Positions 1,430-6,032 of a stretch of DNA of 22,819 nt are shown here, one piece after another. Every line of letters starts with the position of its first letter. The stretch's first letter is position 1. Source of the DNA: a virus; IMG/VR virus record IMGVR_UViG_3300024518_002657, positions 1 through 22,819 of that record, one strand, 5' to 3'. A program made the position numbers and the translations under genes. The notes under the pieces were generated by a model that worked only from the letters and a program-made list of their open reading frames with translations, had not been told where the DNA came from and ran no database searches.

Positions 1430-1488
1430 GCCGGCACCCCAAAGTCCAGCGCACGCTGGGCGAGACGCTTCGCCGCGACCAGGTTCAT
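1426..1488 (-). CDS. micro-ORF (20 aa) linking methyltransferase and zinc-ribbon gene
   Basis: ATG at 1488 overlaps the TGA of the adenine methyltransferase (1485-1487) as ATGA, and its own TGA overlaps the ATG of the zinc-ribbon gene at 1429 in the same way. It reads MNLVAAKRLAQRALDFGVPA, which could form a basic amphipathic helix. It may be a true micropeptide, a device for carrying ribosomes from one gene to the next, or a decayed gene. Two other micro-ORFs of like size sit at equivalent positions in this operon. Confidence 0.35.
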   Translation of the reverse strand: MNLVAAKRLAQRALDFGVPA

Positions 1489-2414
1489 GCCGCGCCCCAT
1501 AAATTGGGCTGATCGCACGATAGGCAGGCAGGAGAGAACCAGATCGCCTCTTTGTTAGTAGTCTTCGAGCCGTTATAAGTGAACCGACCACGGTCCCATT
1601 GTTTGATAGACCACTCGTCTGGTAGGCTGTAGTCGCCGATGTGCCCACAGAGCGCAACTCGCAGATCGGCGTGATCACGCGCCCACGACTCCACCTTGTC
1701 CGCTACACCGATAGCCGTATACACCGACTCATACGCCCGGTATGGAGGGTCGAGAAACACCGCCGTATCGGTGCCGCCATAGTGCGAATTGAGACACCGA
1801 TCCCACTCGCCGTGGATCAGCCGAACGCGCTCAAGCCGGCGCGACAGAGACGTTAACCACTTGTACGCCACCTCAGCCGACGGCCCCCTCCCGGCATTGC
1901 CCACATGGGGAATCTGGCCGACGGCCTGCACGCCCATCCCGGCATCGCTCACATGGGGAATCTGGCCGACGGCCTGCACGCCCATCCCGGCATCGCTCAC
2001 ATGGGGAATCTGGCCGACCCAATCGCACCACCCGGAACCAATCCAACAGCATTGACCCCAGAGCCACCAGCCGGCAATCTTGGCGTCCCCAGGCCAGTCC
2101 GCCTCCTGTAAACCAGCGAGGTCTCCGCGATGTTCCATCAGCCACCGATGTCGCGCCCCGAGGTCGACATGGCTGACCGGATACGTCGCCCACATCGCGA
2201 CGTCATCAGGCTGGTGCTGGGTCGCTCGCCAGAAGTTTGCGACAAACCCGTTGACGTCGTTTACCACCTCCAGGGACGCCGGCTCGCTTGCCGCGAGGAG
2301 CATAGCCGCTGAGCCACAGAACGGCTCGATGTAGTGTTTGGGACGACCGAGCCGCGACCATACACAGTCGACCACGGATCGCTTCCCGCCAAACCAGGGG
2401 AACGGTGCGTTCAC
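1485..2414 (-). CDS. dam: D12-class DNA adenine N6-methyltransferase
   Basis: A Dam-like methyltransferase of about 309-311 aa that transfers a methyl group from S-adenosylmethionine to adenine N6. In the 311-residue numbering (start at 2420) it has PWFGGK (8-13), EPFCGSAAM (32-40) as the cofactor-binding region and DPPY (224-227) as the catalytic motif, all in the usual order. Two GTG starts are possible, 2420 and 2414; the latter overlaps the TGA of a micro-ORF (GTGA) and is chosen here. Residues 135-182, between the cofactor and catalytic motifs, are a threefold tandem repeat of a 16-residue unit beginning VGQIPHVSDAGMGVQA, an insertion unlike normal family members. Phage Dam proteins usually protect phage DNA from host restriction; the target sequence is not visible here. 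Confidence 0.88.
   Translation of the reverse strand: MNAPFPWFGGKRSVVDCVWSRLGRPKHYIEPFCGSAAMLLAASEPASLEVVNDVNGFVANFWRATQHQPDDVAMWATYPVSHVDLGARHRWLMEHRGDLAGLQEADWPGDAKIAGWWLWGQCCWIGSGWCDWVGQIPHVSDAGMGVQAVGQIPHVSDAGMGVQAVGQIPHVGNAGRGPSAEVAYKWLTSLSRRLERVRLIHGEWDRCLNSHYGGTDTAVFLDPPYRAYESVYTAIGVADKVESWARDHADLRVALCGHIGDYSLPDEWSIKQWDRGRFTYNGSKTTNKEAIWFSPACLSCDQPNLWGAA
1880..2018. repeat. 48-bp tandem repeat inside the adenine methyltransferase
   Basis: Two identical 48-bp units at 1902-1949 and 1950-1997, followed by the first 21 bases of a third at 1998-2018 and preceded by a degenerate partial copy at about 1880-1901. The unit length is a multiple of three, so the gene stays in frame and the protein repeats a 16-aa block. 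Confidence 0.93.
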
Positions 2415-2467
2415 ACCCACCCCCGTCGCTCCCGATCGGCCTGAATAGACCGCGCCTGCTCATTCAT
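2411..2467 (-). CDS. micro-ORF (18 aa) linking unknown protein and adenine methyltransferase
   Basis: ATG at 2467 overlaps the TGA of the preceding 142-aa gene (2464-2466), and its TGA at 2411-2413 overlaps the GTG start of the methyltransferase at 2414. It reads MNEQARSIQADRERRGWV, a highly charged peptide. Overlap at both ends suggests translational coupling more than an independent protein. Confidence 0.35.
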   Translation of the reverse strand: MNEQARSIQADRERRGWV

Positions 2468-3238: not shown

Positions 3239-3673
3239 TTACCCAGTGAGACCGCTTTCGCTGTCTCGACGCAATTTATCCGCGGCGCGATGGCACGATC
3301 GGCAAAGCCAGATCACGCTAATAAGCTCGCTGTAATCGTCATGATGGGCCTCGATAGGTCCCATTTCCGAACTGCAACGCATGCATTTATCGGGTTTGCG
3401 AAGCACGCCATTCTCAAGGGCCGTTTGGACCGCCCGCTGCGCCTTGCGCTGTCGCTGCGTCGCGTAAGGGTGGTGTCCAAATATCTTCGCCCGGCGACGT
3501 GATGACTCCCTGCTTAACTCGCGACTTCTCTCAATATTCGAGTAGTACTGTCGTCTCGTCCGAACCAAACGGCATTTTTTACAACTCGCCTCCCTGCCGC
3601 TTTTCACGGTCGGGTTCAGATAGAAATTACCGACCGGCTGGAGAACACCACATGCTCGGCACGTTTTTGTCAT
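3239..3673 (-). CDS. HNH-family endonuclease with N-terminal zinc finger
   Basis: A 144-aa protein with an N-terminal CxxC...CxxC finger (Cys5, Cys8, Cys31, Cys34), a basic middle (40-82) and a C-terminal HNH/treble-clef region: CMRC (97-100), EAHHDDY (108-114), WLCRSCH (122-128). HNH proteins of this size in phages are usually free-standing homing endonucleases or nicking enzymes. The ATG at 3673 has TAGGA 8 bases upstream. GC is about 52-53% in the two 60-base lines counted (3301-3360, 3541-3600), lower than the flanking genes, and non-coding gaps of about 160 bases lie on both sides, both signs of separate acquisition. Its target is not known. Confidence 0.8.
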   Translation of the reverse strand: MTKTCRACGVLQPVGNFYLNPTVKSGREASCKKCRLVRTRRQYYSNIERSRELSRESSRRRAKIFGHHPYATQRQRKAQRAVQTALENGVLRKPDKCMRCSSEMGPIEAHHDDYSELISVIWLCRSCHRAADKLRRDSESGLTG

Positions 3674-3843: not shown

Positions 3844-5085
3844 TTATTCTACGCCCTTTCTAGTCTCGGTCAAGTCCAAGTTCTCCGGCGAGGTAGCGGT
3901 AGGCGGCTGCGGCCTGCTGGGGGACCACGCCGTTCCCCAGGAGTCGGAGCCGCTGCGTGCGGAACTCCAGCGCGCGCTGGACCAAAACATCGGCCACCCC
4001 ATCAGCGTCTCGACAAACAGGGGCGAGAGCCGGTGCGAGTTCGGGGCGCTCGGCAAGGATGGCTGACCAGGCGGCGCGGTCTCCTGGCCCTGGTGGAAAC
4101 GCACCGACTCGACCGTCAACTGTTTGCCCAGCGGCCGAGAGTAGGCACCCACCCTCGCGCTGCGGGCCTCCCAACTCTCGATTGACTCCCTGTCGTTCGG
4201 GGTCGGCCACAGCTTCGCGACGTTCTCCAGCCCCACCTGCCGCTTGCCCGCTTCCGTTTGCCCCTTCGCCGCCACGGCCTCGGGTGTCAGCGTGCGGCCG
4301 CCGTTCGGCACGTCTGGTGTCGGCCACTCTCTCTGTGCCTCCCTTGAGAGATCCCGGCGCTGTGATGTACCGCCCCCCTCCGAATTGCCCGTCTGTGGCG
4401 TGGCCCAGTTTCTCACCCGGATGGTCCTCGGCGTGGTCCAGGCACTCGCAGAACTGCTCAGGTCGTCCGATAGCATCCCCGCCGCGTTGACACTCCCCCT
4501 CTTGACCTTGTTCGCCCACGCTTGTGATCCCTGGCGTGTCGGCGCTCGCGAGTCGCCATCCCTTGCACTCGCGGTGGGCCAGGACAAAGATCCGCTCTCG
4601 TTGATGCGGTGCGCCAACGTCCGATGCCTTGATGAGCGTCTCCGCAACTCGGTAGCCCAGTCGTTCCAACTCTGATCGGACCACCATGTAAGCGGGTCGC
4701 CCATCTGCCTGTCGGGTGGAAACAAGGGCTGCGACGTTCTCCAGAAAGACGAGAGCCGGTCGCGCCCCGTTGATAACCCTGCGGACCTGCGGCCAGAGGT
4801 GTCGGCTATCGTCGTCAGCTTGGCGCTTCCCGGCTGCGGAGAAGGGCTGACACGGGAATCCCGCAGAGAGGAGATCCACGCAGCCACGCCAGCGTCGGCC
4901 GTCGAAGGTCGTAAGGTCGTCCCAGACAGGAGCCGGATGTAGCCGCCCTTCTTCCATGCGCGCGACCAGGACCGCGGCGGCGTAGGCTTCCCGCTCAACG
5001 TAACAGACGGTGCGGTAGGAATCTCCAACGGCGAGGCTGATCCCCAACTCGAGCCCGCCACCTCCGGCACATACAGCCAACCCAT
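3844..5085 (-). CDS. overlapping reading frame within the cytosine methyltransferase ('WPTP' frame)
   Basis: An open frame of 413 codons (ATG 5085, TAA 3844) nested over almost the whole cytosine methyltransferase gene, reading its codons shifted so that this frame's third base is the methyltransferase's first. In the middle it has recurring WPT/WATP/WPTP motifs, each followed by Asp/Asn-rich text (LSWPTASARDGD, NWATPQTGN, EWPTPDVPNGGRT, KRQVGLENVAKLWPTPN), and later LSPLFVETLMGWP. From memory these resemble phage proteins with repeated WPTP and a GLNPxFVEWLMGFP end. Hand counts at 4201-4320 give GC at positions 1/2/3 of 73/56/88% for this frame against 88/73/56% for the methyltransferase frame, the pattern of a real coding frame in a GC-rich genome. 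At 3861-3960 the counts favour the methyltransferase instead. The product may start internally; a conserved shadow frame remains possible. Confidence 0.4.
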   Translation of the reverse strand: MGWLYVPEVAGSSWGSASPLEIPTAPSVTLSGKPTPPRSWSRAWKKGGYIRLLSGTTLRPSTADAGVAAWISSLRDSRVSPSPQPGSAKLTTIADTSGRRSAGLSTGRDRLSSFWRTSQPLFPPDRQMGDPLTWWSDQSWNDWATELRRRSSRHRTLAHRINESGSLSWPTASARDGDSRAPTRQGSQAWANKVKRGSVNAAGMLSDDLSSSASAWTTPRTIRVRNWATPQTGNSEGGGTSQRRDLSREAQREWPTPDVPNGGRTLTPEAVAAKGQTEAGKRQVGLENVAKLWPTPNDRESIESWEARSARVGAYSRPLGKQLTVESVRFHQGQETAPPGQPSLPSAPNSHRLSPLFVETLMGWPMFWSSARWSSARSGSDSWGTAWSPSRPQPPTATSPENLDLTETRKGVE

Positions 5086-5092
5086 GGATCAC
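3860..5092 (-). CDS. dcm: C5 cytosine-specific DNA methyltransferase
   Basis: A 410-aa enzyme that methylates cytosine at C5 using S-adenosylmethionine. Signature motifs occur in order: CAGGGGLELG (motif I, 8-17), SAGFPCQPFS (motif IV, with catalytic Cys81), ENV (motif VI, 118-120), QRERIF (motif VIII, 164-169) and LGNGVVPQQA (motif X region, 385-394). The start is GTG at 5092, overlapping the upstream TGA (GTGA). The stretch between motifs VIII and X, where the target-recognition domain normally lies, is Gly/Arg-rich low-complexity text with repeated VAD elements. In the same stretch another frame has better coding statistics (see 3844-5085). A homologous C-terminal piece of a second such enzyme lies at 5856-6032. 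Likely role: protection of phage DNA from restriction. Confidence 0.88.
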   Translation of the reverse strand: MIHGLAVCAGGGGLELGISLAVGDSYRTVCYVEREAYAAAVLVARMEEGRLHPAPVWDDLTTFDGRRWRGCVDLLSAGFPCQPFSAAGKRQADDDSRHLWPQVRRVINGARPALVFLENVAALVSTRQADGRPAYMVVRSELERLGYRVAETLIKASDVGAPHQRERIFVLAHRECKGWRLASADTPGITSVGEQGQEGECQRGGDAIGRPEQFCECLDHAEDHPGEKLGHATDGQFGGGRYITAPGSLKGGTERVADTRRAERRPHADTRGRGGEGANGSGQAAGGAGERREAVADPERQGVNRELGGPQREGGCLLSAAGQTVDGRVGAFPPGPGDRAAWSAILAERPELAPALAPVCRDADGVADVLVQRALEFRTQRLRLLGNGVVPQQAAAAYRYLAGELGLDRD

Positions 5093-5262
5093 CGCCCCCC
5101 CACGTCTATCACCACCCGCACCGGCTCAGGCGCCACAGGCACCGGATCGGGCGCCATGGCGTCGAGTGCGCCGCCCAACAGGGCGAGCAGGACCAGCGCC
5201 CAGAAGGCATACGCGACGTCCTGGGCCGTCGCTGGACGGCTGTAGGGGCTAGGACCGCGCAC
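5089..5262 (-). CDS. small membrane protein (57 aa)
   Basis: GTG at 5262, preceded by a strong GGGAGG 5 bases upstream, gives 57 aa; the TGA overlaps the methyltransferase GTG start. One membrane segment, VAYAFWALVLLALLGGALDA (about 17-36), is followed by a Pro/Val-rich tail (DPVPVAPEPVRVVIDVGG). It overlaps the preceding gene by 14 bases. A longer in-frame start at 5364 is less likely because that part lies inside the upstream gene. The role is unknown; small membrane proteins in phage early or accessory operons may act in superinfection exclusion. Confidence 0.55.
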   Translation of the reverse strand: MRGPSPYSRPATAQDVAYAFWALVLLALLGGALDAMAPDPVPVAPEPVRVVIDVGGR

Positions 5263-5530
5263 GATGGCCTCCCGTGCGGCTCGAGAACATACTGATATGC
5301 GGCCCGTTGGTCGGTGACCCCACCGTGGGCCCCTCATAGGTCGAGGCCACGTTCTCCTTGCCATAGCCGACCGGCAGGACGCGCCGCAGAGACTCGGCGC
5401 TGAGTTGGCTGCCGCGCTGGCTCCCGGTCAGGGTGGGGGCTTGTGGGTCGACGCGGTCAAGATAGCCATCCCAGTCAACCACGTAGTGCACCCCCCCGTA
5501 ACACACAGCCCGTCGGTGTCTGCGATCCAC
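5249..5530 (-). CDS. hypothetical protein (93 aa)
   Basis: GTG at 5530 shares its first base with the end of the preceding TAG (TAGTG), with GGGGAGGA 7 bases upstream, and the frame runs to TAG at 5249. The protein begins VDRRHRRAVCYGGVHYVVDW and continues with text balanced in charge and polarity (e.g. LRRVLPVGYGKENVASTYEG). No membrane segment or known motif is seen. A longer in-frame start at 5803 would overlap the upstream RMF-like gene completely and is rejected. Confidence 0.6.
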   Translation of the reverse strand: MDRRHRRAVCYGGVHYVVDWDGYLDRVDPQAPTLTGSQRGSQLSAESLRRVLPVGYGKENVASTYEGPTVGSPTNGPHISMFSSRTGGHRARS

Positions 5531-5775: not shown

Positions 5776-5859
5776 CTACTGCTGTCCCCTCGTGCTCCAC
5801 CACTGCGCCACGAGGCCCACCGTGAGACCCACTGCGACGACGATGTAAACCGTGGTCAT
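5776..5859 (-). CDS. 27-aa single-pass membrane peptide
   Basis: ATG at 5859 overlaps the TGA of the orphan methyltransferase fragment (ATGA), and the TAG at 5776-5778 abuts the ATG of the RMF-like gene. The peptide begins MTTVYIVVAVGLTVGLVAQW and ends STRGQQ: one membrane helix plus a short polar tail. A longer in-frame start at 6129 exists, but that part overlaps two other genes. The role is unknown; small hydrophobic peptides of this type occur in phage operons as inhibitors or lysis helpers. Confidence 0.5.
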   Translation of the reverse strand: MTTVYIVVAVGLTVGLVAQWWSTRGQQ

Positions 5860-6032
5860 ATGCCTAACTCGCCAGCGAGCCTGATATAGGCCGCTGATGC
5901 CTGCTGGGGCACGACCCCATTCCCCAGGAGTCGGAGTCGCTGCTGCTGCGCCGCCCTGGATGTCTGGCCCTTGGGGAACCCGTACGGCGAGGCCGGCTGC
6001 TGACCGGTGCCGTGCTTGATCACCTTGATCAC
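5856..6032 (-). CDS. orphan C-terminal piece of a C5 methyltransferase (58 aa)
   Basis: GTG at 6032 overlaps the upstream TGA (GTGA), and the TGA at 5856 overlaps the next ATG. Residues from about 31 read RLRLLGNGVVPQQASAAYIR and end LAGELGI, almost the same as the last part of the methyltransferase at 3860 (RLRLLGNGVVPQQAAAAYRY). None of motifs I, IV, VI or VIII is present, so it cannot be active alone. It may be a recombination remnant, or a maintained fragment that supplies the motif X region in trans. The overlaps at both ends show the operon has kept it as a tidy gene, which argues against simple debris. Confidence 0.6.
   Translation of the reverse strand: MIKVIKHGTGQQPASPYGFPKGQTSRAAQQQRLRLLGNGVVPQQASAAYIRLAGELGI

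Follow-up and report, generated by a model that had tools for sequence, protein, structure and literature searches.

Two overlapping genes in the viral DNA studied here probably encode two parts of a single C5 cytosine methyltransferase, which would work as a heterodimer; the proposal is built on sequence comparison, and there is no protein-level evidence for it. The window, by which we mean the whole stretch analysed (22,819 nucleotides), is a viral source record of 22.8 kb in which tail genes are present. Both ORFs are on the minus strand. They are open over the same 1.2 kb, as the initial annotation had reported, and the peptides that it quoted were found in them. The features of the locus, in window coordinates, are the following:

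3860..5092, minus strand: frame 1, C5 cytosine methyltransferase, predicted catalytic subunit (410 aa, GTG start).
3844..5085, minus strand: frame 2, overlapping gene, +1 relative to frame 1 (413 aa, ATG start).
5083..5092, minus strand: start site GTGATCCATG, read from the sequence.
4847..4855, minus strand: frame-1 motif IV with the catalytic Pro-Cys-Gln, residues 80-82 (translation and Pfam alignment).
4066..4581, minus strand: frame-2 WPTP module array, about five WPTP-like units; conservation there is higher in frame 2 than in frame 1.
4207..4326, minus strand: VPNGGR...KRQVGLENVAKLW module of frame 2 (comparison with locus L049).
3979..4029, minus strand: frame-2 segment assigned to motif IX, LSPLFVETLMGWP and neighbours (profile match to plant DRM methyltransferases).
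3920..3940, minus strand: frame-1 motif X, LGNGVVP (translation; in single-frame relatives it comes directly after motif IX in the same frame).

The frame-1 GTG overlaps the TGA stop of an upstream ORF (5089-5364), and a G-rich, Shine-Dalgarno-like run lies immediately upstream of the GTGATCCATG start site. Frame 2 begins with an ATG located 7 nt downstream of this GTG and extends to 16 nt beyond the frame-1 end; its parts are, in order, an N-terminal extension, the WPTP modules and motif IX.

Several other ORFs of the window were inspected. Downstream of the methyltransferase, a 144-aa ORF (3239-3673, minus strand) has by eye the look of an HNH-type nuclease (paired CxxC, HHDDY), and no Pfam match was obtained for it. 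A D12-class adenine methyltransferase (1485-2420, minus strand; Pfam E=3.7e-12, residues 9-73) has a variable region that contains the tandem repeat VGQIPHVSDAGMGVQA. The 58-aa ORF VIKVIKHGTGQQPASPYGFPKGQTSRAAQQQRLRLLGNGVVPQQASAAYIRLAGELGI (5857-6030, minus strand), whose GTG overlaps the stop of the preceding ORF, is a copy of the motif-X end of the methyltransferase only, 77% identical over 31 aa. When eight related viral records were searched, VIKVIKHGTGQQPASPYGFPKGQTSRAAQQQRLRLLGNGVVPQQASAAYIRLAGELGI matched only inside long open frames (344-523 aa), apparently the genes of the methyltransferase itself, and never as a separate small ORF.

Frame 1 matched phrog_363 and the Pfam DNA_methylase family (residues 8-180, E=1.8e-32), and its structure matches to HhaI and HaeIII covered mainly residues 6-175. 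The initial annotation had considered this frame complete in its motifs. This was correct for motifs I-VIII, located in residues 1-175 (PCQ 80-82, ENV 118-120), and for motif X, but motif IX could not be recognised in frame 1. Past motif VIII, frame 1 consists of a low-complexity VADT-type stretch opposite the WPTP array, followed by motif X; no TRD was recognised in it, and in that region it is less conserved than frame 2. A decayed or frameshifted methyltransferase was excluded, frame 1 being whole except for motif IX and under purifying selection. The motif set of a C5 cytosine methyltransferase is complete only with both frames, motif IX being contributed by frame 2 alone.

Frame 2 matched phrog_1008, described as 'DNA methyltransferase' (E=8.7e-11, residues 73-368), as did all 46 aligned frame-2 relatives. 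Its end, LSPLFVETLMGWP, has in relatives the form LNPxFVEWLMGxPxGW. Sampling of viral contigs by a DNA pattern for FVEWxMG gave at least 80 loci; about 18 of these listed loci are single-frame C5 methyltransferases, and in them the segment sits right before motif X in the same frame. A profile made from the LSPLFVETLMGWP segment together with the single-frame relatives matched the motif IX-X region of plant DRM (DRM2-type) C5 methyltransferases (E=2.8e-4). Because of this position before motif X and the match of the profile to DRM, the LSPLFVETLMGWP end of frame 2 is, by sequence criteria, the C5-methyltransferase motif IX. Beyond what the initial annotation had proposed, frame 2 would probably supply motif IX of the same enzyme and not be an unrelated passenger.

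Relatives in which the parts are arranged differently were found. In two of them (L045 and L082), motifs I-VIII, the WPTP modules, motif IX and motif X are all in one frame. The model of L045 adopted a C5 methyltransferase fold (HhaI match, E about 1e-16); confidence was high in its IX-X region and low in the WPTP modules (residues 183-300 below 50). Frame 2 modelled alone with AlphaFold2 was mostly unconfident (mean pLDDT 52), only the motif-IX segment being near 90; an alignment that combined frame-2 fragments with the fused protein was misaligned and was left out of folding, and a 25-sequence frame-2 alignment was too divergent for scanning. Streptomyces Euratis 33/34 and Gordonia Upyo 54/53 are split genes whose second ORF contains both motif IX and motif X. 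The division of the motifs between the frames, and the joining of the same parts in single-frame relatives, were evident at the level of the translations. On the basis of the motif arrangement in L045/L082, in Euratis/Upyo and in the window type, the one-frame, adjacent-frame and overlapping-frame versions are one family and represent one enzyme.

The reality of frame 2 was evaluated by permuting synonymous codons with the frame-1 protein and codon usage held fixed, on the assumption that codon positions are exchangeable within a gene. Frame 2 of the window had 0 stops, with 4.2 expected (P=0.0015), and the third frame was as expected. A clean test set was provided by 24 non-redundant homologs fetched using frame-1 peptide patterns only; in their frame 2 there were 0 stops, against 28.8, 36.0 and 25.0 (about 90) expected in three regions. 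The ratio of observed to expected stops in 425 other genes of the same contigs, used as a control, was 0.997. The third frame of the 24 homologs held 183 stops against 257 expected under frame-1 shuffling, a deficit that is perhaps a by-product of frame-2 amino-acid constraint. In a wider set, 2 stops against 90 expected and 0 against 42 were counted inside the frame-2 gene, and no avoidance was seen just upstream of the internal start of relatives with a short frame 2 (62 stops, 49 expected). Long and short groups in this wider set were defined by frame-2 openness, so the long-group result for the N-terminal extension is circular. In the converse test, with the frame-2 protein fixed, frame 1 had 0 stops against 225 expected over the module region of 73 genes; this test is less clean, since inclusion partly required an open frame 1. 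The homologs are related and their counts are not independent events, yet they come from many phage groups with a wide GC range.

A shadow ORF, open only through GC richness and frame-1 conservation, would be compatible with the GC content of 66% and with the window P, which taken alone is only 0.0015. However, it would not account for the complete lack of frame-2 stops in the homologs, for the unbiased control genes or for modules conserved in frame 2 and not in frame 1, and frame 2 is also open in relatives of 44-50% GC, where the overlap is found and the third frame holds about 12-24 stops. The codon shuffles in both directions and the control genes ruled out GC richness as the cause, and we consider the chance that frame 2 is such a by-product negligible. 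The stop counts supported the initial suggestion of a genuine overprinted gene and, with the substitution patterns described below, demonstrated on comparative grounds dual coding with selection on both frames.

Which frame leads changes along the gene. The hand counts of GC by codon position made for the initial annotation were reproduced within a few percent. At 4201-4320 they gave 88/72/55 for frame 1 and 72/55/88 for frame 2, which is a frame-2 coding signature; the values at 4441-4560 were 72/60/62 and 60/62/72, respectively, and those of frame 1 were 85/47/76 at 3861-3960 and 70/58/70 at 4801-4920. The signal switches to frame 2 over the WPTP array (4066..4581). For this region the best BLASTP E was 1.7e-22 with frame 2 versus 1.7e-9 with frame 1, and 63 versus 32 homologs were matched. 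Comparison of 155 modules across loci gave 47 pairs whose frame-2 identity was 50% or more; their mean identity was 67% in frame 2 versus 33% in frame 1, and their changes were concentrated at frame-2 third positions (0.55 versus 0.31 and 0.25). The pairs were chosen by frame-2 identity, so the 67% is biased upward; the control is the rarity of frame-1 pairs, only 5 of which reached 50% identity. The identities and the GC switch together favoured the earlier idea that selection shifts frame in the target-recognition region.

The VPNGGR...KRQVGLENVAKLW module illustrates the same pattern: between the window and L049, 29/40 residues are identical in frame 2 and 14/39 in frame 1, and the nucleotide differences are 6/8/23 at frame-2 codon positions 1/2/3. 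The VPNGGR unit is also present in six loci (L003, L012, L039, L049, L062 and L072). A separate observation is that Alfacinha3 (L001 2504-3670) and Alfacinha1 (L003 2493-3626) have one WPTP module exchanged in an otherwise very similar gene.

Constraint on the methyltransferase only, which would have refuted the overprinted gene, was not found: dN/dS-like ratios of close pairs were below 1 in both frames (0.31 in frame 1 and 0.26 in frame 2 for L060/L099; 0.30 and 0.33 for L018/L031). Against frame-2 constraint counts the most similar pair, the window and L010, with an overall frame-2 ratio of 1.08, and amino-acid constraint was weak in the frame-2 N-terminal extension (NN/NS 0.73, long group). 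Frame 1 dominates over motifs I-VIII, and further on both frames are constrained; near motif IX, with all pairs pooled, frame 2 is constrained at least as much as frame 1.

A further possibility is that frame 2 is merely housed in the methyltransferase gene and encodes an unrelated protein with a different function, such as anti-restriction; in favour of this, it evolves like a protein gene of its own and, in the window group, extends from the start of the methyltransferase to beyond the methyltransferase stop. We judge this very unlikely, because frame 2 holds the motif IX that is absent from frame 1, the same parts are joined in single-frame relatives, and a stand-alone WPTP protein without an overlapping methyltransferase, as envisaged in the initial annotation, was not seen at any of the at least 80 FVEWxMG loci listed.

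The start of frame 2 is conserved, as judged from the codons that overlie it. The frame-1 codon over the frame-2 ATG was NAT in 26/26 window-type relatives, with a varying residue (H, N, Y or D). NAT makes up 37% of NAY codons in window-type genes, and its occurrence by chance in 24/24 (the figure was computed for 24 of the 26 relatives) would have a probability of about 4e-11 if these were independent. The frame-1 start of these relatives is variable (ATG, GTG or TTG) and lies a few bases from the frame-2 ATG. Many lower-GC relatives have a shorter frame 2, whose internal ATG lies some 55 codons ahead of the ENV motif and is often preceded, at a distance of 7 nt, by AAGGAG.

These starts bear on programmed frameshifting, in which a single polypeptide would begin in frame 1, take its variable region and motif IX from frame 2, and then return to frame 1, where motif X is encoded. 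Its product would resemble the single-frame proteins L045 and L082, and the two-ORF relatives Euratis 33/34 and Upyo 54/53 have their second ORF in another frame. Nevertheless, frame 2 possesses a conserved start of its own or, in the short forms, a Shine-Dalgarno sequence followed by an internal ATG; two opposite shifts would be needed per protein; and frameshifting needs no open frame 1 across the modules, yet the converse test found it free of stops. We regard frameshifting as unlikely and retain two separately started genes as the preferred reading.

The overlapping arrangement appears, from the contigs sampled, to recur across many unrelated bacteriophages: in about 60 of the at least 80 loci listed, frame 2 is overlapped by an open methyltransferase frame. 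The layout was also found in bacterial genome contigs (Sphingobium, Hyphomonadaceae bacterium and Jannaschia). Annotations differ in the frame retained. The frame-2 ORF is the annotated CDS in Acidovorax Alfacinha1 and 3 and in Synechococcus Ssp-JY39, frame 1 is the annotated frame in Escherichia ESSI2_ev129 and Salmonella SEN5, and both are annotated in Paenibacillus phage Bloom. The note 'g49 internal gene' on gp50 of Paenibacillus phage Diva was the only remark on the overlap in the annotations and family records examined. PHROGs lists phrog_1008 and phrog_27243, which correspond to frame 2, and phrog_363, which corresponds to frame 1, as separate proteins. We found no description of an overlapping-frame or internal gene in the literature on phage methyltransferases, and text searches of a 2025 restriction-modification review gave no mention of it.

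Two further loci were observed. In marine phage KM23-C739 (38% GC; L164 1297-2133), of the annotated methyltransferase CDSs the second corresponds to frame 2, and the methyltransferase frame is open in another frame for about 220 codons. In Paenibacillus polymyxa plasmid pAP1 (L171 939-2429), the +1 frame of the methyltransferase has two LNPxWVExLMGFP segments with stops between them.

The small polypeptide of M.EcoHK31I is reportedly read in a different frame from within the gene of the large one, and such an arrangement is present in the family described here. M.EcoHK31I and M.EaeI are two-polypeptide, YGGCCR systems with the same division of motifs, I-VIII plus X on one chain and IX on the other, as documented for the large and small subunits of M.EcoHK31I (PMC3404938). 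The small subunit of M.EcoHK31I has only motif IX, whereas frame 2 adds a shuffling WPTP array and, in the window group, shares the start site of frame 1 and covers almost all of the gene. The predicted TRD of M.EcoHK31I was reported on the large subunit (PMC3404938), which counts against the role proposed here for frame 2. In M.AquI the catalytic motifs and motif IX are likewise on separate polypeptides, but motifs I-VIII are on one subunit and IX plus X on the small one (PMC3404938), whereas in the present system motif X is retained in frame 1; within the wider family, Euratis 33/34 and Upyo 54/53 are AquI-like. The analogy strongly suggests that the present system would work like M.EcoHK31I, and kinship is not claimed. 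Relative to this precedent, of which the initial annotation took no account, the new features are the breadth, an overlap that runs almost from end to end, and an array of modules that shuffle.

In ordinary C5 methyltransferases, motif IX and the variable region form the DNA-recognising small domain. Frame 2 is interpreted as the motif-IX/variable-region subunit because it carries the motif IX missing from frame 1 and because single-frame relatives join these parts. According to the proposed mechanism, both frames would be started at one site, 7 nt apart, and coupled to the upstream gene; frame 1 would provide the catalytic, cofactor-binding subunit (motifs I-VIII, then X) and frame 2 a second subunit that comprises motif IX and the variable region built of WPTP modules. 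Once assembled, the two chains would form an active enzyme, cytosine methylation itself being inferred; it would modify the DNA of the phage, probably as a protection from host restriction. Production of the two proteins, their binding to one another and DNA recognition by the WPTP modules are all inferences. It is possible, although we hold it only tentatively, that frame 2 consists of interchangeable target-recognition modules, that WPTP swaps change specificity and that frame 1 tolerates them as a low-complexity linker.

Long, near-complete gene overlaps for which selection on both frames is strongly supported are seldom described, and those known mostly concern single viruses. This locus pairs a known enzyme in one frame with a spread over dozens of sampled contigs and named phages, and its single-frame relatives reveal what both parts sum to. 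The evolution of overlapping genes could be tested here at the bench, the frame-2 start being removable by a change silent in frame 1. Because annotation mostly retains one frame, the second halves of many phage methyltransferases are missing from databases or filed as separate or unknown proteins. If the module-swap reading is true, there would be a large class of methyltransferases in phages whose two subunits are encoded in different frames of a single gene.
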